Source of the DNA: Bacteroidales bacterium
GTDB lineage: Bacteria > Bacteroidota > Bacteroidia > Bacteroidales > P3
Assembly (NCBI GenBank): GCA_022482545.1
Contig: JAKVOZ010000008.1
Span: 1 to 64,000 of the forward strand
Length of the DNA: 64,000 bases
Direction: 5' to 3'
Position numbers and translations under genes: made by a program. Shown in pieces: positions 11,504-64,000 of the stretch. The notes below the pieces were generated by a model. The model searched no databases and had not been told where the DNA came from. It saw only the letters and a list, made by a program, of their open reading frames with translations. The stretch's first letter is position 1. Every line of letters begins with the position of its first letter.

Positions 11504-11593
11504 AAAAGAAAGATTGTTCTTTTATTTTGATTTGATTATAAAAAACATACTGCGAAATCCAGTACATCTATTTTCTTTTTGCGATGTACTGCC

Positions 11594-11681: not shown

Positions 11682-11691
11682 TTTTTTCTTT

Positions 11692-29138: not shown

Positions 29139-29176
29139 GTTATATTTAATTTTCTCTTGAAACTATTTCTATAAAA

Positions 29177-29211
29177 AAAACTGTTCAATATTTAAAATAT
29201 TGAACAGTTTT
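29177..29211 (-). terminator. Terminator of the ExbB/ExbD operon
   Basis: A near-perfect palindrome (AAAACTGTTCAATAT with its complement, stem at least 15 bp) is followed on the minus strand by eight consecutive T. It lies 21 bp after the last exbD stop. This is one of the clearest intrinsic terminators in the window. Confidence 0.92.
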
Positions 29212-45185: not shown

Positions 45186-45208
45186 AATTCTCAACATTTT
45201 TAATTTTG

Positions 45209-45216
45209 CAAATATA
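45209..45216 (-). promoter_or_regulatory. -7 box of the addA-like gene
   Basis: The minus strand reads TATATTTG, matching TAnnTTTG. Its closeness to the gene favours the start codon at 45185 over 45197. Confidence 0.55.
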
Positions 45217-45352
45217 ATATATTTTCAGATTTATTTTATTCTATTCTAAGATTTCGTAATGTTTGAATAAGAATATTGATAATATTTTATATCAAAGTGA
45301 TTAAGATTATACGTAAAAGATACATATGTTTATACTATCAAAAAATTAATAG

Positions 45353-45414
45353 CCGTGTTGATACGTTCCAACACGCTCAAAACGTGATTGGATACGTATC
45401 AAACGTCGTAACTA
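45353..45414. repeat. ACG-word array with about 21-bp period
   Basis: Within the 489-bp gap 45198-45686 there are three related segments: CCGTGTTGATACGTTCCAAC, then ACGCTCAAAACGTGATTG (45373), then ACGTATCAAACGTCGTAA (45394), the last two 21 bp apart. GTGTTG/CAACAC and GATACGTATC are local palindromes. This patch is the only G+C-richer stretch in the gap; the remainder is AT rich. Confidence 0.55.
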
Positions 45415-45629
45415 TTAAAATTATTGTGTGAGAATTGCAATAAAATTACTATTATTGATACTTAATAATACATATCATTTGATTATCAATTATTTAATCA
45501 CTAATAAAACGAAGAAATATTTTTTTATTTTAAAGAGTTACTAAATTATTTCTTCATTATATTGACACAATATTGTTATGTTATTTTCAAAAATTATTAC
45601 AAAAATTTTTTAGTTTAGTTTTTTATAAC

Positions 45630-45637
45630 TACCTTTG
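45630..45637 (+). promoter_or_regulatory. -7 box of the M6 metalloprotease gene
   Basis: TACCTTTG matches TAnnTTTG, 49 bp before the ATG. No exact TTTG occurs at -33. Confidence 0.6.
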
Positions 45638-45686
45638 CAAGTTATATTTAAACAATTTTGATTAAAAACAACAAAAGTTAAAAGAT

Positions 45687-49952: not shown

Positions 49953-50803
49953 TGAATGAAAGTTTAATAAAAGAACATATAAAAAACGCTTTAAAAGAAG
50001 ATATACAAGAAGGAGATTTTTCGTCTCTTTCTTGTATTGATGAAAATGCTCAAAGGAAAGTTAAACTTGTAGCAAAGCAAGAAGGTATTGTTTGTGGTAT
50101 TGATGTGTTTTGTATGGTCTTTGAAGAATTAGACTCAAAAAAAGATATTAAGATACAGAAGTTCTTTAATGATGGAGATAAAATAAAAAGTGGTGATATT
50201 ATTCTTAAAATCAAAGGTAATGCAAGAAATATACTTTCTGCTGAAAGAACAGCACTAAACTACATTCAACTTATGTCTGGCATATCAACAACAACTTCAT
50301 ATTATGTTTCATTAATAAAAAACACCAATACAAAACTTTTAGATACAAGAAAAACCACACCAACTCTTCGTCTTTTTGAAAAATATGCAGTAAAAATAGG
50401 CGGAGGAGAAAATCATCGCTTTGGTTTATATGATATGATTATGTTAAAAGACAATCATATTGATTTTGCCGGCGGAATAGAACAAGCTATTAAAAAGACA
50501 AACACATATTTAAAAGAGAACAACAAAGATTTAAAGATAGAAATAGAAGTTAGAAACTTTGATGAATTAAATCAAGTGCTTTCTGTTGGTAATGTAGATA
50601 GAATAATGATTGATAACTTCTCAGTAGAAGATGCAAAGAAAGCAATAAAGATTATTAATCATCGTTTTGAAACTGAATGTTCTGGCGGAATAAATGAAAA
50701 AACAATAAAAGATTTTGCTCAAAGTGGAGTAGATTATATTTCTGTTGGAGCATTAACTCATCATATTTCTGCATTAGATTTAAGTTTAGTTGCTGATGAA
50801 TAG
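49952..50803 (+). CDS. nadC: Nicotinate-nucleotide pyrophosphorylase (quinolinate phosphoribosyltransferase)
   Basis: NadC converts quinolinate and PRPP to nicotinate mononucleotide in de novo NAD synthesis. I chose the start at 49952 (MNESLIKEHIKNAL) because it overlaps the protease stop as TAATG; an in-frame ATG 30 bp earlier lies inside the protease gene. The 283-residue product shows LLDTRKTTPTLRLFEKYAVK, GGGENHRFGLYDMIMLKDNH and CSGGINEKTIKDFAQSGVDY. It overlaps the next gene by 8 nt. nadA and nadB are not in the window. Confidence 0.95.
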   Translation: MNESLIKEHIKNALKEDIQEGDFSSLSCIDENAQRKVKLVAKQEGIVCGIDVFCMVFEELDSKKDIKIQKFFNDGDKIKSGDIILKIKGNARNILSAERTALNYIQLMSGISTTTSYYVSLIKNTNTKLLDTRKTTPTLRLFEKYAVKIGGGENHRFGLYDMIMLKDNHIDFAGGIEQAIKKTNTYLKENNKDLKIEIEVRNFDELNQVLSVGNVDRIMIDNFSVEDAKKAIKIINHRFETECSGGINEKTIKDFAQSGVDYISVGALTHHISALDLSLVADE

Positions 50804-51866
50804 CAAAGGACAAAAATTCTTACGCAAGTTTATTTATTGGAGACCAACACGAACTGTTCTCCACAACTCTCGTTTGCTTGTTCTTCCAGGATTTCAAGGT
50901 GTTCCTATTTTTGATGTTATGCTATTTTTTATAAAAGGGCTAACAAAAGGAGTGATTAATCAAAGAAGTGCAGCAATGAGTTTTCATTTCTTTTTGTCTC
51001 TTTTTCCTCTAATATTGTTTCTTTTCACTCTTCTACCATTTATGCATCTCCACGCACTAACAACGCAACTACTTACAACATTACAAGAATTTACACCTTC
51101 AAGTATTTACCCTTTTATTGACAATACCATAACCGACCTAATGAGTCATAAACATAAAGGTTTGATGTCAATAGGTTTCTTATCTTCAATTTACGTTGCA
51201 TCATCAGGAGTTAATTCCATACTTGTCTCTTTTAACCAATCTCAACATACAAGAAAAAAGAAAAGTTTTATTAAACGAAGAATGATGAGTATAGCACTTG
51301 TTTTAGGGTTAGCTGTTATCTTAATAATAAGTCTATTTTTAATATTATTTTCAAAAACAACATTTAATTATCTTATTGATATCAACATCATCAACACTCT
51401 TACTAAACTTTATATGATGCGAATAATTAAATGGACTCTTCTTATCAGTTTAGTTTATTTGGCTTTTGCTTCAATATATTATTTTGCACCATCAAACAAA
51501 CAAGGATATAAGTTTTTCTCTGCCGGAGCATCTCTTGGCACTCTCCTATTTATATTAACCACACAAGGATTTAACTTTTATATCATACATTTTTCAAGAT
51601 ACAACGCTCTTTATGGCTCAATTGGTGCAATGATTATTTTTCTTATTTGGATATATATTAATTCTTATTTATTGTTAATTGGATTTGAACTTAATGCTTC
51701 AATAGCAGATGCCTATCAACAAGGATATAGCAAACATTCAAGAAGAAATGATAAAGATAAAATATCAATTAATAAGACGGCAAGGAATATGTCTCCTATG
51801 AAAAAAATGAGAAAAAAAATAATCTTAAAGTTTTTAAAATACCAAAAAAGCAAACAACAAAAATAG
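50796..51866 (+). CDS. YihY/BrkB-family (UPF0761) membrane protein
   Basis: A 356-residue inner membrane protein with about six spans in the characteristic arrangement: AMSFHFFLSLFPLILFLFTL, SIGFLSSIYVASSGVNSI, then YYFAPSNKQGYKFFSAGASL and LIWIYINSYLLLIGFELNAS. The family was once called ribonuclease BN, which was a mis-assignment; its role is uncertain. The ATG at 50796 overlaps the nadC end by 8 nt. The C-terminus is basic and cytoplasmic. A 21-bp repeat array begins at its last codon. Confidence 0.9.
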   Translation: MNSKGQKFLRKFIYWRPTRTVLHNSRLLVLPGFQGVPIFDVMLFFIKGLTKGVINQRSAAMSFHFFLSLFPLILFLFTLLPFMHLHALTTQLLTTLQEFTPSSIYPFIDNTITDLMSHKHKGLMSIGFLSSIYVASSGVNSILVSFNQSQHTRKKKSFIKRRMMSIALVLGLAVILIISLFLILFSKTTFNYLIDINIINTLTKLYMMRIIKWTLLISLVYLAFASIYYFAPSNKQGYKFFSAGASLGTLLFILTTQGFNFYIIHFSRYNALYGSIGAMIIFLIWIYINSYLLLIGFELNASIADAYQQGYSKHSRRNDKDKISINKTARNMSPMKKMRKKIILKFLKYQKSKQQK

Positions 51867-51989
51867 TTCCTTATTCCGCTGAAATAGAATCAAAAGATAA
51901 TAAAATAAAACGAAAAAATATTTGAATAGAATGAAGAAATATTTTAGCAGAATCAAGAGATAATAAAATAGTTCTTTAATCCATTTTAA
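51864..51989. repeat. 21-bp-period array, six units, inverted orientation
   Basis: Units start at 51864, 51885, 51906, 51927, 51948 and 51969, each 21 bp apart, with leading words TAGTTC, TAGAAT, TAAAAC, TAGAAT, CAGAAT and TAGTTC. This is the reverse complement of the ATTCTA/GAACTA family. It fills half of the gap between the YihY-like gene and the superoxide dismutase. Confidence 0.85.
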
Positions 51990-52065
51990 TATTGTTAAAA
52001 AAAGTTCATTTAAGAATAAATTGCCAAAAATAATACACTATTAAAAAATATTTCTTATTTTTTTA

Positions 52066-52095
52066 TTGTGCTTTAAATTTAATTTCATACCTTTG
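52066..52095 (+). promoter_or_regulatory. Promoter of the superoxide dismutase gene
   Basis: TTG (52066-52068) is followed after 19 nt by TACCTTTG (52088-52095), a good Bacteroidota promoter 33 bp before the ATG. Confidence 0.75.
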
Positions 52096-52127
52096 TAAAG
52101 TTATTAAAATAAAGAAATTAAAAGATT

Positions 52128-52706
52128 ATGGCAAAATTTACATTACCGGCTCTACCATATGCAATGGACGCATTGGAGCCTTATATCAGCAAAACGACAT
52201 TAGAGTTCCATTATGGCAAACATCATCAAAACTATGTTAATACTCTTAACACTTTGATTGAAGGAACAGAATTTGAAAATCTTTCATTAGAACAAATCAT
52301 TGAAAGAGCAAAAGGTGGCATATTTAATAATGCTGCACAAGTTTGGAATCATACTTTTTATTGGAATTGTATGACAAAAAATCATCAAAAAGAGCCTAAG
52401 GGTAAATTAAAAGAAGCAATAGATAAGACCTTTGGTAGTTTTTCTAATTTTAAAGAAGAATTTACTAAATATGCAACAACGCTTTTTGGTTCAGGATGGT
52501 GCTGGCTTGTAATGAATAAAGAGAATAAACTTGAAATAGTTCAAACATCAAATGCAGGTAATCCTATAACAGAAGGAAAGAAACCTATTTTAGTTTGTGA
52601 TGTTTGGGAACATGCTTATTATCTTGACAAACAAAATGCAAGACCAAAATACGTAACAGACTTTTTTGAATTAATAGATTGGGGAAAAGTAGAAAAGAAC
52701 TTCTAA
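52128..52706 (+). CDS. sodB: Superoxide dismutase, Fe-type (possibly cambialistic)
   Basis: This enzyme converts superoxide to oxygen and hydrogen peroxide in the cytoplasm. The 192-residue protein has metal ligands His28, His75, Asp158 and His162. Gln71 in AAQVWNHTFYW is the position that marks iron enzymes, in place of a later Gln in manganese types. Several Bacteroidota enzymes of this class accept either metal. It is monocistronic and points to an organism that meets some oxygen. Confidence 0.95.
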   Translation: MAKFTLPALPYAMDALEPYISKTTLEFHYGKHHQNYVNTLNTLIEGTEFENLSLEQIIERAKGGIFNNAAQVWNHTFYWNCMTKNHQKEPKGKLKEAIDKTFGSFSNFKEEFTKYATTLFGSGWCWLVMNKENKLEIVQTSNAGNPITEGKKPILVCDVWEHAYYLDKQNARPKYVTDFFELIDWGKVEKNF

Positions 52707-52733
52707 AATTTCAAAATTAAAGATAATATATTC

Positions 52734-52762
52734 TTGATTTTGAAATAAAAACTTTAACTTTG
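52734..52762 (+). promoter_or_regulatory. Promoter of nifJ
   Basis: TTG (52734-52736) and TAACTTTG (52755-52762) are separated by 18 nt. The leader to the ATG at 52841 is about 70 nt. Confidence 0.6.
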
Positions 52763-52840
52763 CAAATTAATTTCCTTCATCAATAAAAATGAAGGAAAGA
52801 AATATTATTTAAAAATCATTTTATAAGATATAAAATCAAT

Positions 52841-55800
52841 ATGGCAAGAGAAAAAAAATTCTTAACATGTGATGGAAATCAAGCAGCAGCTCATGTAGCA
52901 TATATGTTCAGTGAGATGGCAGCGATATATCCTATCACACCATCATCTCCAATGGCAGAGAATGTTGATGAATGGTCAGCAGCAGGAAGAAAAAACCTTT
53001 TTGGAGAAACAGTTAAATTAGTAGAGATGCAATCAGAAGCAGGTGCAGCAGGTGCTGTTCACGGTGCTTTACAAGCAGGAGCATTGACAACAACATTTAC
53101 AGCTTCACAAGGCTTACTTCTTATGATACCTAATATGTACAAGATAGCAGGAGAATTACTTCCAGGAGTATTTCACGTTACAGCTCGTACATTAGCTACT
53201 CACGCATTATCAATATTTGGAGATCATTCAGATATTTACGCATGTCGTCAAACAGGATTTGCTATGCTTTGTTCTTCTTCTGTTCAAGAGGCAATGGATT
53301 TGGCAGGTGTAGCTCATTTAAGTGCAATTAAAGGTAGAGTTCCTTTTATGCATTTCTTTGATGGCTTCCGTACTTCTCACGAAATACAAAAAATAGAAGC
53401 CCTTTCAAATGAAGATTTTGATGGGCTAATAGATAAAGACGCTTTAAAAGCATTCAAAGATAATGCTCTTAATCCTGATCACCCTGTAACAAGAGGTACT
53501 GCTCAAAATCCTGATGTTTTCTTCCAAGCAAGTGAAGCAAGCAACAAATTCTATGATGCAATACCAGATATAGTTAATGACTATATGCAAAAAGTTGGTC
53601 AAGTAACAGGTAGAGTACATAAACCATTTGAATATTATGGAGCAGAAGATGCAGAAAACATAATCATTGCTATGGGTTCTGTTAATGATACAATAAAAGA
53701 AGTTATTGATTATCTTGCAAAGAAAGGCGAAAAACTTGGACTTGTTACTGTTCATCTTTATCGTCCATTCTCAGCTAAATATTTCTTAAATGTATTACCA
53801 AAAAGTGTAAAGAGAATTTGCGTTTTAGACCGTACAAAAGAATGTGGTGCAACAGGAGATCCATTATACTTAGATGTTGTTGAAGTTGTTAATAATGAAT
53901 GTTCATGCAAAGAAAAACCAATGGTTATTGGTGGTCGTTATGGACTTTCTTCTAAGGATACAACACCAGCTCAAATACTTTCTGTTTATGAAAACCTTAA
54001 AGCAAAACAACCTAAGAATAAATTTACAGTAGGTATTGTTGATGATGTTACTAATCTTTCTCTTCCAATGTTAGACGAAGTTTCAATGGCAACAAAAGGT
54101 ACATTTGAAGCTAAGTTCTATGGTTTAGGTGCTGATGGTACTGTTGGAGCAAACAAGAACTCTATTAAGATTATAGGAAATAATACAGATAAATATTGTC
54201 AAGCATATTTTGCTTATGATAGTAAGAAATCAGGAGGATTTACTTGCTCTCACCTTCGTTTTGGTGATAACCCTATTCGTTCTCCATATCTTGTAACAAC
54301 ACCAGATTTTGTTGCATGCCATGTTTTCTCATATCTAAGACAATATGAAGTATTAAAAGGTATAAAAGAAAACGGTACTTTCCTTTTAAACTCTATGTTT
54401 GATGCACAAGAAACTGTTAAACATTTACCAGTAAAGATAAAGAAGATTCTTGCACAAAAGAACATTAACTTCTATATCATCAATGCAACTAAAATAGCAG
54501 AAGAGATAGGTCTTGGAAATAGAACAAATACTATTCTTCAATCTGCATTCTTTAAGATAGCAAGCGTTATACCTTACGATTTAGCTGTAACTCAAATGAA
54601 GAAAGCTATTGAAAAGTCATATGGCAAGAAAGGTGAAAACATAGTTAAGATGAACTATGCTGCTGTTGATAGAGGTGGAGATGTTACAAAGGTTGAAGTA
54701 AAGAAAGAATGGTTAAATGAAGACGAAAAGAAAGATGCTTGCGTAAATAATCACCCAGCATTTATTAAGAATGTTGTTGATGTTATCAATGCACAAGAAG
54801 GTGATACACTTCCTGTTTCTGCTTTTGTTGGAAAAGAAAACGGTACTTTCCCTTCTGGTACATCTAAATATGAAAAACGTGGTATAGCTTCTCACGTTCC
54901 TATGTGGAATGCAAATAATTGTATTCAATGTAATCAATGTTCATTAGTTTGTCCTCACGCTGCTATTCGTCCATTCCTTATCAATGAAAAAGAAATGAAT
55001 GAACTTAAAGGCGTTCAAACAATAAAAGCTAATGGAAAAGAATTTGAAGGACTACAATTTAGAGTTCAAATAGACCCATTAGATTGTACAGGTTGTGGAA
55101 ACTGCGTTGATGTTTGCCCTGCTAAGACAAAAGCCTTAGAGATGAAACCAATAACAGAAAGACAAGAAGACATTAAACTTTGGGATGCTATGATAGAAAA
55201 AGTATCTAACAAAGCTAATCTTACTGATATAACAAAATCTATTAAAAATTCTCAATTCTCTAAACCATTATTTGAGTTCTCTGGAGCTTGTGCTGGTTGT
55301 GGAGAAACACCTTATATAAAACTTATCACTCAATTATTTGGTAGTAGAATGATGGTTGCAAATGCTACTGGTTGTTCTTCTATTTATGGTGGTTCTTGTC
55401 CATCTATGCCTTATACAACTAACGAAGAAGGAAGAGGTCCTGCATGGGCTAACTCTTTATTTGAAGATAACGCTGAATTTGGTTTAGGTATGGCTGTTGC
55501 TACTCGCAAGATGAGAGATAGAGTTGAAGATTTAATGAGAAAAGGTTTAACTTGCTCTTGTTGCTCTGATGAACAAAAAGTATTATTCCAACTTTGGATA
55601 GATAATCGTGAGAATGCAGAAATAACAGAGAAAGTTTATAAAGAACTTATTCCTCTTTGCGAAAAATGTTCATGTGATACATGCAAAGCTATCATTGAGA
55701 ACAAACAATATATCATCAAAAAATCTCAATGGATATTTGGTGGTGATGGTTGGGGCTACGATATAGGTTATGGTGGACTTGATCACGTTATTGCAAGTGG

Positions 55801-56383
55801 TGAGAATGTAAACATACTTGTTGTTGATACAGAGGTTTATTCTAACACTGGTGGACAAGCATCAAAAGCTACTCCAATGGGTGCTATTGCTAAGTTTGCT
55901 GCAAGTGGCAAACGTGTAAGAAAGAAAGACCTTGGTATGATAGCAACTACTTATGGTTATGTTTATGTTGCACAAGTATCAATAGGAGCTAATCCTTCTC
56001 AATATATTAAGGCACTTAAAGAGGCTGAGGCTTACGATGGTCCATCTCTTATCATTGCTTATGCTCCTTGTATCAATCACGGAATAAAAGCTGGTATGGG
56101 TAAGACACAAGCAGAACAAAAGAAAGCTGTTGAATGTGGTTATTGGCAACTATGGAGATATAATCCAGAGCTTGCAAATGAAGGAAAGAATCCATTTAGT
56201 CTTGATTCACAAGAACCAAACTGGGATAACTTCCAAGCATTTATTGATGGCGAAGTTCGTTACAACTCTTTAAAGAAAGCATTCCCTGAACAAGCTGCTG
56301 AGTTATTTAATGCAGCCGAAGAAAATGCTAAATGGCGTTATGCTTCTTATAAGAGAATGTCTACAATGGATTGGAATAAATAA
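52841..56383 (+). CDS. nifJ: Pyruvate:ferredoxin (flavodoxin) oxidoreductase
   Basis: A single-chain 1180-residue enzyme that oxidises pyruvate to acetyl-CoA and CO2 while reducing ferredoxin or flavodoxin, central to anaerobic fermentation. The N-terminal domain (YPITPSSPMAENVDEW) is followed by two 4Fe-4S ferredoxin sites, Cys694/697/700/704 (CIQCNQCSLVCP) and Cys749/752/755/759 (CTGCGNCVDVCP). The proximal cluster and thiamine site include CAGCGETPYIKL and GDGWGYDIGYGG near residue 969. All domains are complete. It is a single-gene unit ended by a clear terminator. Confidence 0.97.
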   Translation: MAREKKFLTCDGNQAAAHVAYMFSEMAAIYPITPSSPMAENVDEWSAAGRKNLFGETVKLVEMQSEAGAAGAVHGALQAGALTTTFTASQGLLLMIPNMYKIAGELLPGVFHVTARTLATHALSIFGDHSDIYACRQTGFAMLCSSSVQEAMDLAGVAHLSAIKGRVPFMHFFDGFRTSHEIQKIEALSNEDFDGLIDKDALKAFKDNALNPDHPVTRGTAQNPDVFFQASEASNKFYDAIPDIVNDYMQKVGQVTGRVHKPFEYYGAEDAENIIIAMGSVNDTIKEVIDYLAKKGEKLGLVTVHLYRPFSAKYFLNVLPKSVKRICVLDRTKECGATGDPLYLDVVEVVNNECSCKEKPMVIGGRYGLSSKDTTPAQILSVYENLKAKQPKNKFTVGIVDDVTNLSLPMLDEVSMATKGTFEAKFYGLGADGTVGANKNSIKIIGNNTDKYCQAYFAYDSKKSGGFTCSHLRFGDNPIRSPYLVTTPDFVACHVFSYLRQYEVLKGIKENGTFLLNSMFDAQETVKHLPVKIKKILAQKNINFYIINATKIAEEIGLGNRTNTILQSAFFKIASVIPYDLAVTQMKKAIEKSYGKKGENIVKMNYAAVDRGGDVTKVEVKKEWLNEDEKKDACVNNHPAFIKNVVDVINAQEGDTLPVSAFVGKENGTFPSGTSKYEKRGIASHVPMWNANNCIQCNQCSLVCPHAAIRPFLINEKEMNELKGVQTIKANGKEFEGLQFRVQIDPLDCTGCGNCVDVCPAKTKALEMKPITERQEDIKLWDAMIEKVSNKANLTDITKSIKNSQFSKPLFEFSGACAGCGETPYIKLITQLFGSRMMVANATGCSSIYGGSCPSMPYTTNEEGRGPAWANSLFEDNAEFGLGMAVATRKMRDRVEDLMRKGLTCSCCSDEQKVLFQLWIDNRENAEITEKVYKELIPLCEKCSCDTCKAIIENKQYIIKKSQWIFGGDGWGYDIGYGGLDHVIASGENVNILVVDTEVYSNTGGQASKATPMGAIAKFAASGKRVRKKDLGMIATTYGYVYVAQVSIGANPSQYIKALKEAEAYDGPSLIIAYAPCINHGIKAGMGKTQAEQKKAVECGYWQLWRYNPELANEGKNPFSLDSQEPNWDNFQAFIDGEVRYNSLKKAFPEQAAELFNAAEENAKWRYASYKRMSTMDWNK

Positions 56384-56407
56384 TATTATTCTAAATATTA
56401 AATAAGT

Positions 56408-56446
56408 AAAGAGGATTTAGTTTTTCTAAGTCCTCTTTTGTTTTTG
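56408..56446 (+). terminator. Terminator of nifJ
   Basis: AAAGAGGATTTAG pairs with CTAAGTCCTCTTT (one U-G pair) around a TTTTT loop and is followed by TTGTTTTTG, 25 bp after the stop. Confidence 0.85.
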
Positions 56447-56489
56447 TGATAATTATTAATCAAATACAAAGAATAAAACATTATTTTAT

Positions 56490-56594
56490 TAGATTCTATT
56501 ATCATTAAAATAGTTCTTTATTCCGTTGAAATAGAATAGCAATCCATTAAAATAGAATCAAGAACTATTTTGCTATCTCTTTATTCTATTTGAA
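56490..56594. repeat. 21-bp-period array, five units, inverted orientation
   Basis: Units start at 56490, 56511, 56532, 56553 and 56574, each 21 bp apart. AAAATAGTTCTT (56507-56518) and AAGAACTATTTT (56560-56571) form a perfect 12-bp stem, with a 41-nt loop that contains two further units. It lies between the convergent nifJ and methyltransferase genes. Confidence 0.85.
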
Positions 56595-56602
56595 CAGTGT
56601 AA

Positions 56603-57328
56603 TTATAGAAGAAATTTCTTTGTTAATTGTTCGTATTCTTTTGTGTAATTGCCATCAATATCTCTAATAAATATCCTTTCTATTTGCTTATTTTTAGGTT
56701 CGCTTTGGAAGATATTGACTATCCTTTTGCATTCTGTTTTAGGTGAAGAAAAGATTTGATATTGTTTTTCCACGTAAATATTTTTTTTATTAAATATATC
56801 TTCTAATGTATCAGCCTCATTTTTTGGCAAGATAACCATTATCTTAGAATGTTCATCAATAAGACTTTCACAACAAATCGCAAAATCATCAAGCGGTAAA
56901 GAATCATTATGGCGAGCCTTTGTTTTTCTATCGTTTGGCGAAGCAAGTGAAGAAGTAAAATAAGGTGGATTAGAGATAATAAGGTCAAACGTCTTAGGAT
57001 TACTTTCTTTTAATGTTGTTTGTTGTCTAAAATCTTGAAAAGAAATAAGGTCTGCTTGCAATCTATCTTTATATTTAGATGAAAAAAAATTGCTTTTTGC
57101 TTCTATGATAGACTTTTCATCAATATCAATTGCTATAATCTTTGCATAAGGATATGTTTGAGCCATACAAAGACTAATTATTCCGCAACCACAACCAACA
57201 TCAAGAATGTTTTTCGCCTCCATTCTTGGTGCCAAAGAAGATAAAAGTATGGCATCTGTACCAACTTTCATTGTTGATTCTTTATGATTTAATGAAAACT
57301 CTTTGCAATTAAAATCCATAATCAACAT
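56603..57328 (-). CDS. tRNA1(Val) adenine-37 N6-methyltransferase-like protein (TrmN6/YfiC family)
   Basis: A 241-residue class I SAM-dependent methyltransferase. Motif I is DVGCGCGI at residues 43-50, and the N6-adenine type catalytic motif is NPPY at residues 120-123 (LIISNPPYFTSS). The family methylates A37 of tRNA-Val in enterics, and the start FSLNHKESTMKVGTDAILL is characteristic. The start may be codon 1 or codon 4, since both are ATG. It is monocistronic, with a possible repeat-based hairpin upstream. Confidence 0.88.
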   Translation of the reverse strand: MLIMDFNCKEFSLNHKESTMKVGTDAILLSSLAPRMEAKNILDVGCGCGIISLCMAQTYPYAKIIAIDIDEKSIIEAKSNFFSSKYKDRLQADLISFQDFRQQTTLKESNPKTFDLIISNPPYFTSSLASPNDRKTKARHNDSLPLDDFAICCESLIDEHSKIMVILPKNEADTLEDIFNKKNIYVEKQYQIFSSPKTECKRIVNIFQSEPKNKQIERIFIRDIDGNYTKEYEQLTKKFLL

Positions 57329-57388
57329 CGTTTTTTATTCTTCTTCTCATCTAAAAAAAATAACGCTAAAATCTTTTACTTAACTCTT

Positions 57389-57430
57389 CGTTTTATTTAA
57401 TTATTTCATCGTTTTAGTAAAATATAACGA
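57389..57430. repeat. CGTTTTA words 21 bp apart with flanking inverted repeat
   Basis: CGTTTTA occurs at 57389 and 57410, exactly 21 bp apart. CTTCGTT (57386-57392) is complementary to AACGAAG just beyond the second unit, so the segment can fold. It lies between mntP and the methyltransferase gene. Confidence 0.45.
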
Positions 57431-57443
57431 AGAAAAAATTTGA

Positions 57444-58019
57444 TTAAAAAAAGTAGTGTTCTGCTAATGTTTTTAATCCTATAATCATAAGAATTAATCC
57501 ACCAAGAAACAATGCAATACGAGGTTTAATGAAATACATTCTCTCTCCCATCTTTGCTCCGACAAGAGACAAAACAAATGTTGTTATGAAGATGATAGCA
57601 ATTGCCACTATTTGCTGTCCAACAAGCCATTTTAAACCAAAACTAATTCCAACAGCAAACGCATCAATACTTGTTGCAATACTTAACATAAGAAGAACTT
57701 TTGTTTGAGATATATCAAAAATCTTCTTTTTAAGATTATAGTTCTTTGCTTCCATAAGCATCTTTAATCCTATAACAAACAAAAGAGCAAAACTTACCCA
57801 ACAAGCAATATCTTTTATTGTCTCTTTGAAAATATCTCCAAGTATAGAACCAAGAAAAGGCATAAGTGCTTGAAAAAATCCGAAACAAAAAGCAAGTAAG
57901 AGTGTTCTACTTTTTGTTAATGTTTTTTGCAATCCACATGTTATTGAAACAGTGAAACAATCCATTGCCAACGCAATACCAAGAAGCACAACTTCTATTA
58001 AAAAATTAAGATTAAACAT
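57444..58019 (-). CDS. mntP: Manganese efflux pump MntP
   Basis: A 191-residue membrane protein with six predicted spans that exports Mn2+. The duplicated motif with conserved acidic residues is visible as LGIALAMDCFTVSITCGLQ and LSIATSIDAFAVGISFGL. It overlaps the rsmA end by 8 nt, so the two are coupled although functionally unrelated. No yybP-ykoY-type manganese riboswitch is visible upstream of the operon. Confidence 0.94.
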   Translation of the reverse strand: MFNLNFLIEVVLLGIALAMDCFTVSITCGLQKTLTKSRTLLLAFCFGFFQALMPFLGSILGDIFKETIKDIACWVSFALLFVIGLKMLMEAKNYNLKKKIFDISQTKVLLMLSIATSIDAFAVGISFGLKWLVGQQIVAIAIIFITTFVLSLVGAKMGERMYFIKPRIALFLGGLILMIIGLKTLAEHYFF

Positions 58020-58779
58020 TGTAAATTGTGTTTGTTAAATTAATAAAATCATCTACACTAAGTTGCTCTGCACGAAGAGTAAGCAACTCTTTATCCACCA
58101 TACTTAAATCTTTGTTTAATGCTTTCAAACTTTGACGAAGCATCTTCCTTCTTTGATTGAAAGCAGTCTTAACAACAAGAACAAAACTATTTTCATCACA
58201 AGGTAAACTCTTAACTTCATTTCTTTCTAAACGAATGACAGCTGACTGAACCTTTGGAATAGGATAAAAAACAGATTTATCTACCGTGAAAAGATAAGAT
58301 ATATTATAGAAAGCAGATAAGAAAACAGACAAAATACCATAAGTTTTATTACCATTTTTAGCAACTATTCTTTGGGCAACTTCTTTTTGAAACATACCAA
58401 CAACTTCGCTAACATTATCTCTATTCTCAAAAACTTTGAAAAGGATTTGATTTGATATATTGTAAGGGAAATTGCCAATAATAGCACATCTTTCAGAAAA
58501 AGTATCATTAAAATTGATTTTTAGAAAATCATCTTCAATAATCTTTGTTTGTAAAGCAGGATAGTTTTCTTTAAGATATGCCACCGATTCTGTATCAATC
58601 TCAACAACCTTAAAGTTTTTTATATCATTATCAAGCAAATATTTAGTTAAAACGCCCATACCTGCACCTATCTCCAACACATTGTTTTTCTCTTTCAAGT
58701 TATTTACAATATTTTGTGCTATCGTTTCATCTGTAAGGAAATGCTGACCTAAGTATTTCTTTGCTCTAACTTGTTTCAT
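58012..58779 (-). CDS. rsmA: 16S rRNA dimethyladenosine transferase
   Basis: RsmA (KsgA) dimethylates two adjacent adenines in the 3' terminal helix of 16S rRNA late in small-subunit assembly. The 255-residue protein starts with KYLGQHFLTDETIAQNIV and has the SAM motif EIGAGMGVLT at about 37-46, the catalytic GNFPYNISNQI, and the helical C-domain (AFNQRRKMLRQSLKAL). It follows the tsf terminator and overlaps mntP. Confidence 0.97.
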   Translation of the reverse strand: MKQVRAKKYLGQHFLTDETIAQNIVNNLKEKNNVLEIGAGMGVLTKYLLDNDIKNFKVVEIDTESVAYLKENYPALQTKIIEDDFLKINFNDTFSERCAIIGNFPYNISNQILFKVFENRDNVSEVVGMFQKEVAQRIVAKNGNKTYGILSVFLSAFYNISYLFTVDKSVFYPIPKVQSAVIRLERNEVKSLPCDENSFVLVVKTAFNQRRKMLRQSLKALNKDLSMVDKELLTLRAEQLSVDDFINLTNTIYNV

Positions 58780-58804
58780 CTATTTATCTTTTTATTAATG
58801 ATAT

Positions 58805-58838
58805 AAAAAAAGGAAGCAAAACAGAATGTTTCGCTTCC
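58805..58838 (-). terminator. Terminator of the rplM-rpsI-rpsB-tsf operon
   Basis: On the minus strand GGAAGCGAAAC pairs with GTTTTGCTTCC (one G-U) around a 5-nt loop and is followed by seven T. It lies 25 bp after the tsf stop. Confidence 0.88.
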
Positions 58839-58862
58839 AAATTAATATATGAAAAGAATTTT

Positions 58863-59690
58863 TTACGCACCTAATTCAGCTCTTGCGAAAGAAGTTACAG
58901 TTAAATCTTTATCTTGTTGTTTAAGATATTGTTCAACTGTTGTTTTTGCTTCAAGGATAAATTCTTGAGGTAAAAGCGTACTTTCTTTAAAGAACTTATT
59001 TAACTTACCTTCTGCAATTTTCTCAATCATATTTTCTGGCTTACCTTCTTCTTTTATTTGAATACGATAAACTTCCATTTCTTTTTCTATTATATCTTGA
59101 GGTACAGAAGATTTATCAACTGATATTGGTCTCATAGAAACAACTTGCATAGCCATTTCTTTACCAACCTTATCAAAGTTTGTTTTATTTAATCCAACAA
59201 CGCTTGCCATTCTGTTACCAGGATGAGTGTAAGCATAAGTTGCAGGAGCTTCTATGGCAGAATATTGAGAAAAAGTGATTTTTTCACCAATCTTTGCTAC
59301 TTGATCAACTAAAAGTGTTTCAACTGTTGTACCATTAATGCTAAGTTTATTAACCTCATCAATAGTTTTTGCTTTTGCTTTTATTGCTTGATCAAGAACA
59401 CTCTTTGTAAAAGAAACAAAGCCTTCGTTTTGAGCAACGAAATCTGTTTCGCAATTAATCATAATAACAGCTGCGAATGTATTACTACTATCACATTCTG
59501 CTAAAACGCAACCTTCATTAGCTGATCTATCAGCTCTTTTTGCTGCTAATTTCTTGCCTTTTTCTCTTAAATAATCGATTGCTTTATCAAAATCACCGTC
59601 GCATTCAACAAGTGCTTTCTTGCAATCCATCATTCCAACTCCTGTAAGTTGTCTTAATTTATTTATGTCTTGTACTGTTACGTTTGCCAT
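58863..59690 (-). CDS. tsf: Translation elongation factor Ts
   Basis: EF-Ts is the nucleotide exchange factor for EF-Tu. The 275-residue protein begins with the UBA-like domain (INKLRQLTGVGMMDCKKALV) followed by LREKGKKLAAKRADRSANEG, then the core contacting EF-Tu (INCETDFVAQNEGF). The length is normal. It lies 12 bp after rpsB, the near-universal pairing, and ends the operon. Confidence 0.97.
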   Translation of the reverse strand: MANVTVQDINKLRQLTGVGMMDCKKALVECDGDFDKAIDYLREKGKKLAAKRADRSANEGCVLAECDSSNTFAAVIMINCETDFVAQNEGFVSFTKSVLDQAIKAKAKTIDEVNKLSINGTTVETLLVDQVAKIGEKITFSQYSAIEAPATYAYTHPGNRMASVVGLNKTNFDKVGKEMAMQVVSMRPISVDKSSVPQDIIEKEMEVYRIQIKEEGKPENMIEKIAEGKLNKFFKESTLLPQEFILEAKTTVEQYLKQQDKDLTVTSFARAELGA

Positions 59691-59702
59691 AATCTTTTCT
59701 CC

Positions 59703-60608
59703 TTAATCTTTTTTAGCAACAGGTTTTTTAGCAATTACTTTACGAGGACGTTTGTCTAATGCTTTCTTTTTATCAGCACTATCTTGATCCAATTCAATTG
59801 CTTTTACTTTCTTTACCTTCTTTACTTTTCCATCTTCTGTTGTAACTTCATCATCAAGAAGTTCAGTTGCTAATTTTTGTTCTTGTTCTTGCTCTTCTTG
59901 TTCTTGAATTTGAGCATCTTTATCAAGTTTTCTTTCTTGTAGTCCTTCTTCAATAGCATCACACATATACTTTAATATTAAAGATATTGATTTTGATGCA
60001 TCATCATTTGCTGGAATAGGAAAATCAATTAAGTCTGGATTACAATTAGTATCAACGATAGCAAATGTTGGTATATTTAATCTTCTTGCTTCTGCAACTG
60101 CAATATGTTCTTTATTAATATCTATTACAAATAATGCTGAAGGAAGATGAGTTAAACCAGCAATAGAGCCAAGGTTTTTCTCTAATTTTGCTTTTTCTCT
60201 TGTGATTTGTAAACGTTCACGTTTTGAAATCATATTATTTTCCTTATTAGATATAAGTTTATCTAATGAAGACATCTTTTTTACTGCTTTCCTAATAGTA
60301 ACAAAGTTTGTAAGCATACCACCAGGCCAACGTTCTGTAACGAATGGCATATTAACTTGCTTTACTGTGTTTGCTACTACGTCTTTTGCTTGCTTCTTTG
60401 TTGAAACAAATAGTATCTGTTTTCCTGATTTTGCTATTTGTTTTAAAGCTGTAGCTGCTTCTTCTGCTTTTGCAGCTGTTTTGTAAAGGTCAATAATGTG
60501 GATACCATTATGTTCCATAAAAATATATGGAGCCATCTTAGGATTCCATTTTCTTTTCAAGTGTCCAAAGTGAACACCTGCCTCTAACATTTTGTCAAAT
60601 TCTAACAT
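59703..60608 (-). CDS. rpsB: 30S ribosomal protein S2 with C-terminal extension
   Basis: S2 is a small-subunit protein needed for S1 binding and mRNA docking. Residues 1-230 are the normal core (AGVHFGHLKRKWNPKMAPYIF, RWPGGMLTNFVTIRKAV, IPTFAIVDTNCNPDLIDFPI). About 70 extra residues follow: a Gln/Glu stretch, an acidic patch and a basic Lys/Arg tail (about 232-301). The gene is preceded by a 110-bp gap with two stem-loops, a probable leader, and is followed by tsf. Confidence 0.97.
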   Translation of the reverse strand: MLEFDKMLEAGVHFGHLKRKWNPKMAPYIFMEHNGIHIIDLYKTAAKAEEAATALKQIAKSGKQILFVSTKKQAKDVVANTVKQVNMPFVTERWPGGMLTNFVTIRKAVKKMSSLDKLISNKENNMISKRERLQITREKAKLEKNLGSIAGLTHLPSALFVIDINKEHIAVAEARRLNIPTFAIVDTNCNPDLIDFPIPANDDASKSISLILKYMCDAIEEGLQERKLDKDAQIQEQEEQEQEQKLATELLDDEVTTEDGKVKKVKKVKAIELDQDSADKKKALDKRPRKVIAKKPVAKKD

Positions 60609-60652
60609 CTTCTTTTGTTTGTTTACTTTCCTTTTAAAATTTATTTAACTTC

Positions 60653-60714
60653 AATTGATAAGTAGTTATTTTAAAATAAATCTTATCAATTTGGATACTA
60701 AACTTATTATCCAA
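60653..60714 (-). promoter_or_regulatory. Probable rpsB mRNA leader: two tandem stem-loops
   Basis: In the rpsI-rpsB gap, TTGGATA (60691-60697) pairs with TATCCAA (60708-60714) around 10 nt. Directly next to it AATTGATAAG (60653-60662) pairs with CTTATCAATT (60682-60691) around 19 nt. The stems share base 60691. No uridine tract follows on the minus strand, so a terminator is less likely than a structured leader for autoregulation by S2 (inference). Confidence 0.6.
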
Positions 60715-60718
60715 TATC

Positions 60719-61108
60719 CTAACGTTTGCTGAATTGGAAACGTTTTCTTGCTTTCTTTTGTCCTGGTTTCTTTCTTTCAACCATACGAGAATCTCTTTTT
60801 AGAAGACCTTTTGATTTAAGAGCCGGTCTATCTTCAAGATTTGCTTCACATAAAGCTCTTGCTATTGCCATTCTTAAAGCTTCTGCTTGACCTGATATTC
60901 CACCACCATCAAGGTTTGCTTTAACATCAAATTTATCTTCTGCTCCTATTGTCTCAAATGCTTGACGGCAAATATATTGTAGTGGAGCTGTTGGAAAATA
61001 TTCTTTATAGTCTTTACCATTAACTACGATATTGCCATTGCCAACTTTCATATAAACTCTTGCAACAGCAGTCTTTCTTCTTCCTATTGTGTTTATTACG
61101 CCTTCCAT
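60719..61108 (-). CDS. rpsI: 30S ribosomal protein S9
   Basis: S9 is a small-subunit head protein whose C-terminal tail reaches the P-site tRNA. The 129-residue product has NTIGRRKTAVARVYMK, LDGGGISGQAEALRMAIARA and the universal C-terminus RKRFQFSKR. It starts 2 bp after rplM stops, the standard L13-S9 pair. Confidence 0.97.
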   Translation of the reverse strand: MEGVINTIGRRKTAVARVYMKVGNGNIVVNGKDYKEYFPTAPLQYICRQAFETIGAEDKFDVKANLDGGGISGQAEALRMAIARALCEANLEDRPALKSKGLLKRDSRMVERKKPGQKKARKRFQFSKR

Positions 61109-61110
61109 TT

Positions 61111-61566
61111 TTATCTAATTGAATTAAGATTTACTAACTCTGGTTTCTGTGCTTCATATTTATGGTTTGGACCAACTACAACATGAAGATTTTTAAATAA
61201 AGCATCACCTAATTTGCTCTTTGGCAACATACCTTTAATTGCATGTTGAAGAATTCTTTCTGGGAATTTATTAAGAACCTCTCTTGGTGAAGAAAAACGT
61301 TGTCCTCCTGGATAACCTGTATGACGAACATAAACTTTGTCTGTTAGTTTTTTACCCGTCAATCTAACTTTCTCTGCATTTATTATTATTACATTATCTC
61401 CACAATCAACGTTTGGAGTATAACATGGTTTATGTTTGCCTCTAAGGACATTAGCTGCTCTTGTTGCAACACGTCCAACGACTTGATTCTCTGCATCAAT
61501 AACAATCCATTTCTTTTCAACAGCACTCTTACTTATTGATACTGTTTTATAGCTTAATGTGCTCAT
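61111..61566 (-). CDS. rplM: 50S ribosomal protein L13
   Basis: L13 is an early-assembly protein of the large subunit. The 151-residue product has the signatures VIDAENQVVGRVATRAANVL, GKHKPCYTPNVDCGDNVIII and YVRHTGYPGGQRF. It is first in the rplM-rpsI-rpsB-tsf unit. A hairpin at the predicted 5' end of the transcript (61670-61723) suggests feedback control by L13, and a strong promoter lies just beyond it. Confidence 0.97.
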   Translation of the reverse strand: MSTLSYKTVSISKSAVEKKWIVIDAENQVVGRVATRAANVLRGKHKPCYTPNVDCGDNVIIINAEKVRLTGKKLTDKVYVRHTGYPGGQRFSSPREVLNKFPERILQHAIKGMLPKSKLGDALFKNLHVVVGPNHKYEAQKPELVNLNSIR

Positions 61567-61669
61567 CTTTTATTATTTTCTTCTAATTTTAAAATAAATT
61601 AAAAATCGTTTTTCATCTTTTGTTTTCTTCTCAAGGCCAATTGAAAATCAACAAAAAATCATTGTTTTC

Positions 61670-61723
61670 CTCTAAATGAATCAATTATAGGATGATTCAC
61701 GGGTTGCTAATTGTCATTTAGAG
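61670..61723 (-). promoter_or_regulatory. Probable L13 mRNA leader structure
   Basis: CTCTAAATGA (61670-61679) pairs with TCATTTAGAG (61714-61723). After a 2-nt bulge CAATTA (61682-61687) pairs with TAATTG (61708-61713), leaving a 20-nt loop that contains ACGGGTTGC. An alternative 7-bp pairing, TGAATCA (61677-61683) with TGATTCA (61693-61699), overlaps the outer stem, so two exclusive folds are possible. The predicted transcript start falls at or next to the outer arm. Ribosomal-protein leaders upstream of rplM are known in Bacteroidia as a class; identity with that class was not tested. Confidence 0.7.
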
Positions 61724-61727
61724 TGTG

Positions 61728-61757
61728 CAAAGGTACAACTTTTTATTTGATAACAAA
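61728..61757 (-). promoter_or_regulatory. Promoter of the rplM operon
   Basis: On the minus strand TTTG (61754-61757) precedes TACCTTTG (61728-61735) by 18 nt, a good Bacteroidota promoter. Confidence 0.8.
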
Positions 61758-61882
61758 TACTTTTTTAGAAAAATTTTAATTTACTTAACATTTTAATGTT
61801 GAAAAATTAGAAAAATTTAATTTTGCGAAAATCTTATTTGTCTTCAATTAACAATCTTTTAATTTTACCAAAATGTATTAAA

Positions 61883-62050
61883 GAACTATTTTACTGTCTT
61901 TTGATTCTAATAAAATGAATCGCTATTCTATTCAAATATATCTTTATTCTATTTTATTATCTTTTGATTCTATTTTAATGGAATAAAGAACTATTTTAAC
62001 ATCTCTTTATTTCATTCAAATTGTTCTTTATTCTATTTTTTGTTTTGTAT
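61883..62050. repeat. 21-bp-period array, eight units (longest in the window)
   Basis: Units start at 61883, 61904, 61925, 61946, 61967, 61988, 62009 and 62030, all exactly 21 bp apart. Leading words are GAACTA, ATTCTA, ATTCTA, ATTCTA, ATTCTA, GAACTA, ATTTCA and ATTCTA. The array takes up much of the 529-bp gap 61567-62095 and ends in the promoter of the gene at 62096, so the last unit overlaps its -33 element (62039-62042). Confidence 0.92.
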
Positions 62051-62070
62051 CAATATTTTTTATACCTTTG
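62039..62070 (+). promoter_or_regulatory. Promoter of the 235-residue membrane protein gene
   Basis: TTTG (62039-62042), a 20-nt spacer and TACCTTTG (62063-62070) match the Bacteroidota consensus closely, 26 bp before the ATG. Confidence 0.8.
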
Positions 62071-62095
62071 CTTCAATTAATCAAAGCAAATTATT

Positions 62096-62803
62096 ATGAA
62101 TAGTTTTATTAGCATTGCGTCTTCAATAATTTATTTTATTATTATTTTAATAATATTAATAACATTATTATATATAGGAGTATATTCATTCAATAAAAAG
62201 AAAAATAAAAAAACTGATTTAAATTATAATAAACAACATATTAGAAATAAAAGCATTTTTATAACATTATTTATTCTTTCTTTATTATGGGCTATCTTTG
62301 TTATTTTCATAGGCATTGTTATGTATAGTTGGGATCTTGATACATACAAAAAAAATATAATAGAAGTCAATACGGAAATAAAACCTTTTGTTTATTATGT
62401 TGAAAAGTTTAAAAAAGAGAATAAACGTTTGCCAACACAAAAAGAATTTGATAAATGGGTAAGATATGAATACAATGATTATTCTGTAGAACCACAAAAA
62501 ATATGTCATGCAAACTATATACGTAAATTAGACAATGTTACTGTAGAAGATGAGTATAAATTTAAAGACATTAATTGGCAAACAGACTATGCAATATCGT
62601 ATTGGAATGGAGATTCCTTTGATTATTATTTATCATGGAAGAAGTTTTATGATGTTAGTATATATACAAAAGAAGATGCAAGAAAAGGACTGATTATTAC
62701 TATCTTAATAGGAATATTACCATTAATATTATTATTTTCTGTAAGGAGAATAAAAAACATAAGAAACAAAAACAAGATTATAGAAAAACAACAAACATTA
62801 TGA
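62096..62803 (+). CDS. Membrane protein of unknown function
   Basis: A 235-residue protein with two N-terminal membrane helices (about 7-30 and 51-75) and one near the C-terminus (about 198-217). A roughly 115-residue extracytoplasmic part lies between, containing LPTQKEFDKWVRYEYNDYS and DYYLSWKKFYDV. I recognise no family. It has a strong promoter and overlaps the ogt-like gene by 4 nt, forming a two-gene operon. A functional link to DNA repair is not evident. Confidence 0.65.
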   Translation: MNSFISIASSIIYFIIILIILITLLYIGVYSFNKKKNKKTDLNYNKQHIRNKSIFITLFILSLLWAIFVIFIGIVMYSWDLDTYKKNIIEVNTEIKPFVYYVEKFKKENKRLPTQKEFDKWVRYEYNDYSVEPQKICHANYIRKLDNVTVEDEYKFKDINWQTDYAISYWNGDSFDYYLSWKKFYDVSIYTKEDARKGLIITILIGILPLILLFSVRRIKNIRNKNKIIEKQQTL

Positions 62804-63309
62804 AAACTATTAAAATTCAATATTATAAATCAATAATAGGAGAATTATTACTTGGCTGTTCTGACAATAAGTTATGTCTTTGCGATTGGGTAAAAGAAGA
62901 AAGACGAAACATTATTGATAAAAAAATACAAAACGCCTTAAATGCAAGATATGAAGTAGGCAATAGTGAAGTAATTGAACAAACGATAAAAGAATTAGAT
63001 GAATATTTTGCAAAGCGAAGAAAGATGTTTGATATACCTCTTTTGTTTGTTGGCACTTCTTTTCAAAAGACTGTTTGGAAGGAATTGCTTAATATTCCTT
63101 ATGGCAAGACCATCTCTTATAAAGAACTCGCACAAAAAATAGGTAATCCAAAGGCAATTCGTGCAGTAGCTAATGCAAATAGATTAAATGCTATTTCTAT
63201 TCTTGTTCCTTGTCACCGTGTCATTAGTTCTAATAATAAACTTGTTGGATATGGTGGAGGCTTAACTGCAAAAAAGACTTTATTAGATTTGGAAAACAAT
63301 ATTTTGTAA
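62800..63309 (+). CDS. ogt: Methylated-DNA--protein-cysteine methyltransferase
   Basis: A suicidal repair protein that takes the methyl group from O6-methylguanine. The 169-residue protein has the catalytic Cys138 in PCHRVI, the helix-turn-helix with the Arg finger (KAIRAVANANRLN) and YGKTISYKELAQKIGNPKA. No Ada regulatory domain is present, so it is the Ogt-type form. It is co-transcribed with the upstream membrane protein. Confidence 0.95.
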   Translation: MKTIKIQYYKSIIGELLLGCSDNKLCLCDWVKEERRNIIDKKIQNALNARYEVGNSEVIEQTIKELDEYFAKRRKMFDIPLLFVGTSFQKTVWKELLNIPYGKTISYKELAQKIGNPKAIRAVANANRLNAISILVPCHRVISSNNKLVGYGGGLTAKKTLLDLENNIL

Positions 63310-63392
63310 TTTCTATTCATTAATCCTATCTATACTTAATTATAATAAAACAGTTTTGTAGGTTTGATAAAACATAAATAATAATGTGTAAA

Positions 63393-63455
63393 TAGTTCTT
63401 TAATCCATTTTAGCGAAATAAAGAACTATTTTTCTATCTCTTTATTTCGCTTTAA
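63393..63455. repeat. 21-bp-period array with a 13-bp hairpin, three units
   Basis: Units start at 63393, 63414 and 63435. AAATAGTTCTTTA (63390-63402) and TAAAGAACTATTT (63419-63431) form a perfect 13-bp stem with a 16-nt loop. It lies in the 333-bp gap 63310-63642 after the ogt-like gene; the stem could help end that transcript. The rest of the gap is AT rich and holds the tRNA-Cys promoter. Confidence 0.8.
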
Positions 63456-63599
63456 AGAAACAAGAAATATGATTATTTGAGATAAATTCTTAATAATTCT
63501 GATATATTATTTATCATTTAGGAATAAATAAGTTAGCAAGATAATAATATTAAAAATCTTGTCTTTATTTTAAGAAAACTAACAAAAAATAAAATAAAA

Positions 63600-63630
63600 T
63601 TTGGTATTTAAAAAAAAAGTTGTACTTTTG
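63600..63630 (+). promoter_or_regulatory. Promoter of tRNA-Cys
   Basis: TTTG (63600-63603), a 19-nt spacer and TACTTTTG (63623-63630) match TTTG ... TAnnTTTG, 12 bp before the tRNA. Confidence 0.82.
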
Positions 63631-63642
63631 CAAAGTAAATAA

Positions 63643-63713
63643 GGTCTCTTGACCGAGTGGCTAGGTGCCGGTCTGCAAAACCGTTTACTCCAGTTCGAAT
63701 CTGGGAGAGACCT
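63643..63713 (+). tRNA. tRNA-Cys (anticodon GCA)
   Basis: The acceptor stem GGTCTCT pairs with AGAGACC. The anticodon loop CTGCAAA gives GCA, and the T loop is GTTCGAA. No CCA is encoded. It is a single tRNA gene with its own promoter. Confidence 0.95.
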
Positions 63714-63875
63714 CTTACCCTTATTATTTCTTTGCCCTTAATGTTGTCTAAACCCTTACTATATCTAAGTAAATAAAGGATTTTTACCACTTTTCATAAT
63801 TACACAAAAACACTTAAAAAGTAAAAAAACAACAAAAAACCCGCACAAAAACCCACACAAGTTTTTTTATTGTAT

Positions 63876-63883
63876 TATCTTTG
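63876..63883 (+). promoter_or_regulatory. Orphan -7 box near the right edge
   Basis: TATCTTTG matches TAnnTTTG and is followed by the typical CA. No gene on the plus strand starts before the window ends, so the target would lie beyond it. A clear -33 element is missing. The stretch 63714-63875 is A/C rich and holds nothing else I recognise. Confidence 0.35.
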
Positions 63884-63917
63884 CAAAATCAAATTTAGTA
63901 TTAAAAATAATTTTTAT

Positions 63918-64000
63918 TTATTGTAGCACTTCATTTGAAAGTACTTTTATGTATTCATCTATTAATACCGTTCTTCTCTTATTGGATAATCCATTATGAT
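63918..64000 (-). CDS. Possible 3' end of a minus-strand gene
   Basis: A minus-strand frame enters from the right edge and ends at a TAA at 63918-63920, coding for 26 residues that finish RRTVLIDEYIKVLSNEVLQ. This is too short to assign and may be chance. A plus-strand promoter-like box just to its left argues against, or marks a convergent arrangement. Confidence 0.25.
   Translation of the reverse strand, partial: HNGLSNKRRTVLIDEYIKVLSNEVLQ

Follow-up and report, generated by a model that had tools for sequence, protein, structure and literature searches.

Intergenic AT-rich words of alternating orientation on a one-turn helical clock in a gut Bacteroidales group look like landing strips for a candidate DNA-binding or DNA-wrapping protein

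Repeated protein sites at helical spacing are known from plasmid iterons and from arrays of Fis or Lrp, and the ARG boxes of the ArgR regulator are 18-bp boxes set 3 bp apart. Degenerate nucleoid proteins read flexible YR steps from one face of the DNA. Among dispersed chromosomal repeats, BrickBuilt has a host of the Bacteroidales lineage. PMC4596501 describes BrickBuilt of Porphyromonas gingivalis as a minisatellite MITE whose 23-nt units, each close to two helical turns long, are repeated in tandem between genes at scattered genomic sites; its leader and tail end in small inverted repeats, and one strain has 19 copies. BIME/REP elements are introduced in PMC2817692 as high-copy, intergenic, regularly spaced units of alternating orientation. 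PMC6379681 presents BIMEs as binding sites for several proteins and BIME-2 as overrepresented for gyrase cleavage sites, and attributes to strong gyrase sites a helically phased composition and an enrichment downstream of highly transcribed operons.

The repeats described here are found in a gut Bacteroidales group and consist of intergenic AT-rich words whose phasing is strict enough to suggest landing strips for a candidate DNA-binding or DNA-wrapping protein. BIMEs are nearest to them in way of working and BrickBuilt in unit length and lineage, and the arrays lack defining features of both. The arrays resemble BIME/REP in being extragenic, present in many copies and of alternating orientation; a BIME is, however, a palindrome of 20-40 bp, whereas the unit here is one helical turn (a 9-bp word) that changes from step to step, and inspection by eye of the unit profile and of the half-word dictionary gave neither the GTAG nor the CGTC tag of REP/BIME. 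With BrickBuilt they share the intergenic position, the tandem units of about two turns and the dispersal, but the 21-bp family is, with few exceptions, devoid of a general leader or tail, and 61 arrays are already present in 464 kb. By sequence, the BrickBuilt consensus had no match with up to 3 mismatches in the window (the whole 64,000-nucleotide stretch of DNA that was analysed), and the pitch is 21 (or 22) bp, not 23. Helical phasing is common to the arrays and to the gyrase-wrapping motif, from which they differ by a main AT/GC component of 21 bp, not 10, and by discrete words. Unlike iterons and Fis or Lrp arrays, they occupy many chromosomal loci and comprise several unrelated sequence families. 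No description of this repeat was found in titles and abstract openings from searches of open-licence literature, nor in passages of PMC4596501, PMC5771137, PMC3733652, PMC3940949, PMC6379681 and PMC2817692.

The window is part of contig C8 of genome G000 (1.88 Mb, 23 contigs) and has a G+C content of about 30%. The main sample was made of the window plus 400 kb from the same genome (464 kb in all), and the main comparison genome, G008, belongs to the same genus. ORFs used for counts inside and outside genes were called mechanically. In the 464 kb, a 21-bp profile gave 433 hits on the two strands, which could be joined into 61 arrays, the shortest with 2 units and the longest with 8; the original prediction that all copies are intergenic proved nearly right, since 387 of these hits lie mostly outside ORFs and 46 mostly inside (both strands counted).

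Within the window, the predicted eight-unit array at 61883-62030 was recovered as a chain of eight in-register hits at 61862-62026, and the array as a whole (61862-62037) lies between the ribosomal L13 gene on the minus strand and a plus-strand ORF. Five more arrays, predicted at 4942, 29055, 51864, 56490 and 63393, were found with 4 to 6 profile hits each (at 4942, 29076, 51873, 56478 and 63339-63440, respectively). They are located at 4942-5079 (6 hits in register, between a minus-strand tRNA-Thr/Tyr/Gly cluster and a plus-strand outer-membrane beta-barrel gene), at 29065-29177 (5 in-register hits, with an ExbD/TolR gene on one side and an M20 peptidase gene on the other), at 51861-51995 (6 in-register hits, where a BrkB-family gene ends, ahead of superoxide dismutase), at 56478-56600 (6 hits in register, between convergent genes, and separate from a terminator-like hairpin at 56408-56438), and at 63391-63455 ahead of tRNA-Cys, where the profile chain at 63339-63440 has 4 hits over 5 positions. 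The shorter copies predicted at 11692 and 36432 were recovered (11671-11730, 3 hits, and 36432-36470, 2 hits), and the one at 41966 was not recovered by the profile. Each of the two recovered copies abuts a 22-bp palindromic array, the 22-bp arrays of the window being located at 11560-11676 (CAGTACA family, with 33-bp leader spacing) and at 36465-36571 (CATAATGCCATTATG palindrome family). The profile added two short arrays of 2 hits, at 45514-45552 and 57390-57428. Genes adjoining arrays are ordinary (EF-Tu, a tRNA cluster, outer-membrane beta-barrel, M20 peptidase, ExbD/TolR, BrkB, superoxide dismutase, ribosomal L13 and O6-methylguanine methyltransferase), and none of the 10 scanned proteins was a mobile-element protein.

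Spacing was measured on pairs of the words ATTCTATTT or GAACTATTT, allowing one mismatch, on both strands of the 464 kb. A distance of 21 bp separated 57 intergenic pairs, versus 2 pairs in ORFs and 0.25 per shuffle, which is the excess over shuffled and coding DNA looked for in the original prediction. Multiples of 21 were also abundant between genes (34 pairs at 42 bp, 21 at 63 and 14 at 84, the mean of other intergenic distances being 0.70), while ORF pairs at 21, 42, 63 and 84 bp numbered 2, 1, 0 and 2, with 0.10-0.30 each in shuffles. In the whole genome, 26 of the 28 ATTCTATT pairs 11-41 bp apart are exactly 21 bp apart, one being at 22 and one at 18 (4 matches for the reversed-pattern control). 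The nearest intergenic spacing in G008 was 21 bp in 415 cases, 42 in 87, 63 in 8 and 22 in 4, and 20 bp was not among the 20 commonest values listed; 516 of the 556 nearest neighbours less than 130 bp apart were in register, and 14 pairs at 21 bp fell in DNA called as ORF. The 21-bp arrays are thus confirmed as real, and they form a larger phenomenon than originally described.

The unit profile is an 18-bp pseudo-dyad followed by a 3-bp spacer. Because both strands feed the profile, the dyad was re-tested with forward and reverse words counted independently. The forward/reverse offset modulo 21 was 10 in 137 of 156 pairs in G000 and in 1735 of 1778 in G008; the raw offsets (-11, 10, -32, 31, etc.) place the reverse word 10 bp after or 11 bp before the forward one, plus multiples of 21. 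Words therefore alternate in orientation every 10 or 11 bp, i.e. at each helical turn, and 21 bp corresponds to two steps; the predicted clock stands as to its spacing and is refined as to its step.

Several unit statistics were computed on arrays of more than two units; the half-word dictionary was built from 44 of the 61 G000 arrays, and from the 66 of 68 G008 regions that contain an anchor. Half-words form a small discrete dictionary, led by GTTTTAGAA, GTTTTAATT and GAGATAGAA in G008 and by ATTCTATTT and GAACTATTT in G000. Read outward from the spacer, they have in both genomes the frame R-N3-YR (+2, +6, +7), which is favoured by the choice of anchors and profiles, and the bases that fill it differ. 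Among 55 non-anchor interior units of G008 (of 301), +2 was R in 98%, +7 was R in 99%, and +6 was Y in only 68%; YR steps are largely in fixed columns, partly favoured by how units were chosen. Near-palindromic half-word neighbours across the spacer were rarer than under random pairing (9.9% versus 21.8% in G008, 7.5% versus 21.3% in G000), a scarcity that may reflect oriented units copied as wholes. Orientation switches of the spacer were skewed in G008 (66 arrays; 74 of type -+ and 39 of type +-, with about 73 and 72 in order shuffles). An apparent asymmetry of distant half-word complementarity was put down to end effects, as the first left or last right half of a chain is often outside the array. 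The AA/TT component of 10.5 bp is dominant in G000 and not in G008, so that simple intrinsic curvature is not a shared property.

Self-matches were also searched at lags of 10-60 in the intergenic DNA of relatives, most samples being about 20 kb or less. Lags in G000 were 22 (11 matches), 21 (10), 44 (9) and 42 (6), with one each at 12, 34 and 36, and those in G008 were 21 (53), 42 (48) and one at 23. Smaller samples of congeners gave 21 (4) and 22 (1) in G001, 22 (1) in G002, 21 (1) in G010, 22 (1) in G011 and 22 (3) in G013, as well as one match at 41 and one at 42 in G006 and one at 41 in G009; one of the G006 matches is a near-perfect 41-bp duplication and not an array of this kind. For other genera of the family, matches were at 22 (2) and 44 (1) in G014, at 21 (1) in G016, and at 21 (1) and 42 (1) in G024. 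The samples, mostly of about 20 kb or less, had no match in G003, G004, G005, G007 and G012, and the mostly small samples had none in 4 of 7 family genomes of other genera (G015, G018, G020 and G023) and in 7 of 7 genomes of other families. Words vary by species, and congeners place different ones 21 or 22 bp apart. A clear excess of the core AAACNAAG recurring at 11-41 bp, defined as 30 matches or more and no less than 3 times the reversed control, was seen in 11 of 121 family genomes, spanning four genera, and in none of 195 genomes from other families (198 genomes searched in the order). The genome of the window, whose commonest words differ, is just under this line (42 versus 15). In G053, the genome used for the AAACNAAG spacing tally, all of its 63 matches being listed, 49 were at 21 bp.

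Adjacent units have an identity of 0.60 in G008 and of 0.58 in G000, versus 0.56 and 0.53 for random ones, and their likeness in excess of order shuffles is 0.67 bases in G008 and 0.08 in G000. Array-to-array alignments, kept when at least 84 bp long, at most 97% identical and limited to one per array pair, contained 207 gap openings for 49,870 mismatches in G008 and 13 for 3,460 in G000 (about 1 per 250), a ratio pushed down by the inclusion among mismatches of unit pairs that are not true copies and by the tendency of local alignments to stop at indels. For neutral bacterial spacer DNA, one gap opening is expected for every ten or twenty mismatches, and even so the ratio in the arrays is far below this expectation. 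Spacing had been predicted to be better conserved than sequence and to fit two helical turns; this very low slippage agrees with it, as do the 21- or 22-bp spacing of different words among congeners and three further genera, and the unrelated 22-bp palindromic families of the same genome.

Eleven 22-bp arrays are present in the 464 kb, belonging to the CAGTACA family (7), to the CATAATG-CATTATG palindromes (3) and to AAAAGACGGTCTTTT (1), and 7 of the 11 abut or nearly abut 21-bp units. Genome-wide, the 76 CAGTACA pairs 11-41 bp apart are spaced by 22 (57 pairs), 33 (15), 32 (3) and 23 bp (1), versus 0 for the control; the steps of 22 and 33 bp are whole helical turns again. Since 14 of the 15 steps of 33 bp have nearly the same leader, the CAGTACA family has more the look of an ordinary dispersed element.

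The reading preferred here, with about even confidence, is that of a dispersed BIME-like family of intergenic mosaics whose register is held by a candidate dimeric or DNA-wrapping protein reading one face of the helix. Each element consists of 9-bp words drawn from a small dictionary particular to the species, 10 or 11 bp apart and alternating in orientation, so that every 21 bp contains an 18-bp pseudo-dyad and a 3-bp spacer. If a dimeric DNA-binding or DNA-wrapping protein bound cooperatively along one face of the whole array, a copy with a slipped unit would be left unbound and lost, and the register would thereby be kept. The mode of action would resemble that of BIMEs or of phased nucleoid-protein arrays, and new arrays appear to be seeded by block copying from existing ones. 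Shared register, alternation of orientation and the R/Y frame fit contacts of a dimeric or wrapping protein with flexible YR steps on a single face. The low slippage, the different words at a two-turn pitch in relatives, the unrelated 22-bp families, the presence or absence of entire arrays at orthologous sites and the lack of signs of selection for array-wide hairpins also count in favour of this reading. As to the same-face display predicted for a phased binding or nucleoid protein, the register is borne out, and the display and its protein stay a proposal, no binding protein for the arrays having been identified. Against this reading, a discrete half-word dictionary is what copying, and not just selection on a degenerate site, would produce, and a copying machinery working in 21-bp steps could hold the register by itself; the 14 ORF pairs of G008, and a location bias that is strong in G000 but weak in G008, also count against it.

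The main rival is a selfish element copied in two-turn steps, a minisatellite or MITE-like element such as BrickBuilt of Porphyromonas, which a transposase, or slippage and recombination, would spread and whose copying mechanism would keep the 21-bp register with no host function; it is given appreciable weight, clearly below even. Copying accounts for some of the likeness among arrays, which is block-wise (88% over 119-122 bp; 94.9% over 214 bp between loci L026 and L040). Whole arrays also come and go between species: among the 7 orthologous gaps comparable between G000 and G008, 4 have an array in one species and none in the other, and none is shared. The one-species arrays of 21 bp are at C1:81014 (G000) and at C8:25823 and C1:91488 (G008), and a 22-bp one at C1:111610 is restricted to G000. 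These two points, together with strand alternation at each turn, go beyond the original prediction. The leader of the CAGTACA family at 33-bp spacing (15 of 76 matches) is a further argument for a selfish element. By contrast, the 21-bp arrays share no general leader or tail: their similarity generally stops at the array edge (95th percentile at 16-17 bp beyond it, 99th at 39 and 50 bp), hence a family seen without constant ends. No Y1/RAYT transposase was detected in the genus, PF01797 being present in 0 of 14 genus genomes and in 5 of 14 control genomes, and the 464 kb contained no dispersed multi-copy gene, its paralogues above 60% identity amounting to 3 pairs, of which two are tandem neighbours. 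Indels are few despite a divergence of about 40% between neighbouring units, and the two-turn pitch recurs in several unrelated families, which also argues against a selfish origin.

A role at the RNA level, with transcribed hairpins acting as terminators or mRNA stabilisers, is improbable. It is suggested by folding, which beats dinucleotide shuffles on both strands (mean z of -5.8 for 58 G008 arrays and of -3.2 for 19 G000 arrays), and by the location of arrays among genes. With array gaps (at least 3 hits) of any length compared to gaps of 120-3000 bp, so that fractions are approximate, G000 has arrays in 16 convergent, 20 tandem and 7 divergent gaps, versus 22, 71 and 26, and G008 in 14, 40 and 10, versus 43, 121 and 57. 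Convergent gaps are therefore favoured in G000 (a strong bias) and divergent ones less used in G008, neither bias being common to both; in tandem gaps, the array is nearer to the end of the upstream gene in 13 of 20 cases in G000 and 27 of 40 in G008. However, shuffling the order of units costs only 0.95 and 0.24 kcal/mol, and no array-wide dyad exceeds order shuffles. The fold of array RNA thus follows from the dictionary, array-wide hairpins show no sign of selection in the order shuffles and the dyad test, and strongly complementary neighbours are under-represented in both G008 and G000. A scan for intrinsic terminators asking for 3 G-C pairs gave 8 sites in 45000-64000 (6.1 in shuffles), none of them inside an array, and the only Rfam matches in the window were 5 tRNAs.

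Operators of an ordinary regulator, as the ARG boxes of ArgR, have the same geometry (18-bp pseudo-palindrome plus 3-bp spacer), but they are a very improbable explanation, as Arg_repressor (PF01316) was detected in none of 61 family genomes, among them G000 and G008, versus 9 of 14 control genomes (Bacteroides ihuae being one of the 9), and the arrays counted in 464 kb are too many for a classical regulon. That the clock is an artefact of chance or composition in AT-rich spacer DNA has almost no probability left: the words are indeed AT-rich and partly of low complexity, but the pair counts already refute it, and besides 21, 22 and their doubles no lag between 10 and 60 was met more than once in any sampled genome.

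A broader and on balance unlikely proposal extends the preferred binding-protein reading to a family-wide helical-clock code, in which words alternate strand at each turn, unrelated families converge on the two-turn pitch, and a candidate lineage-specific chromosome-organising or DNA-wrapping protein would read register and purine/pyrimidine frame over base sequence. Dispersed bacterial repeats are usually defined by their sequence; here the conserved trait is helical geometry, while words vary by species. If a protein reads the arrays, they would provide a gut lineage with a genome-wide scaffold encoded in sequence, in which selection on helical register would be directly measurable; if none does, a copying process in two-turn steps would be equally unexpected. 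A 29-bp stretch of G024, from another genus, at C38:10164-10192 is identical to G008 array sequence, which may reflect old constraint or horizontal exchange. Two-turn arrays may reach wider in the order, as G179, from another Bacteroidales family, has short runs of AAACAAAG cores 22 bp apart, with one step of 23, at C3:32888-32961 and C3:149231-149305. A long word combination was found at 0 loci in the viral contigs scanned, and its sole match in genome contigs was to RGIG4461, a Bacteroidales MAG of roe deer omasum, at the very locus of G008.

Two features of the G000 sequence were recorded in addition. Two genes (window 9492-10526 and G000:C2:85355-86365) are 89% identical over 146 of about 340 aa, and a 22-bp array is located about 1 kb from one of them and about 0.1 kb from the other. 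The region G000:C1:32789-57471 (L050-L051) consists of 168-bp units (56 codons) repeated in tandem over about 24.7 kb; it appears to encode a giant repetitive protein, with the frame interrupted in the assembly.
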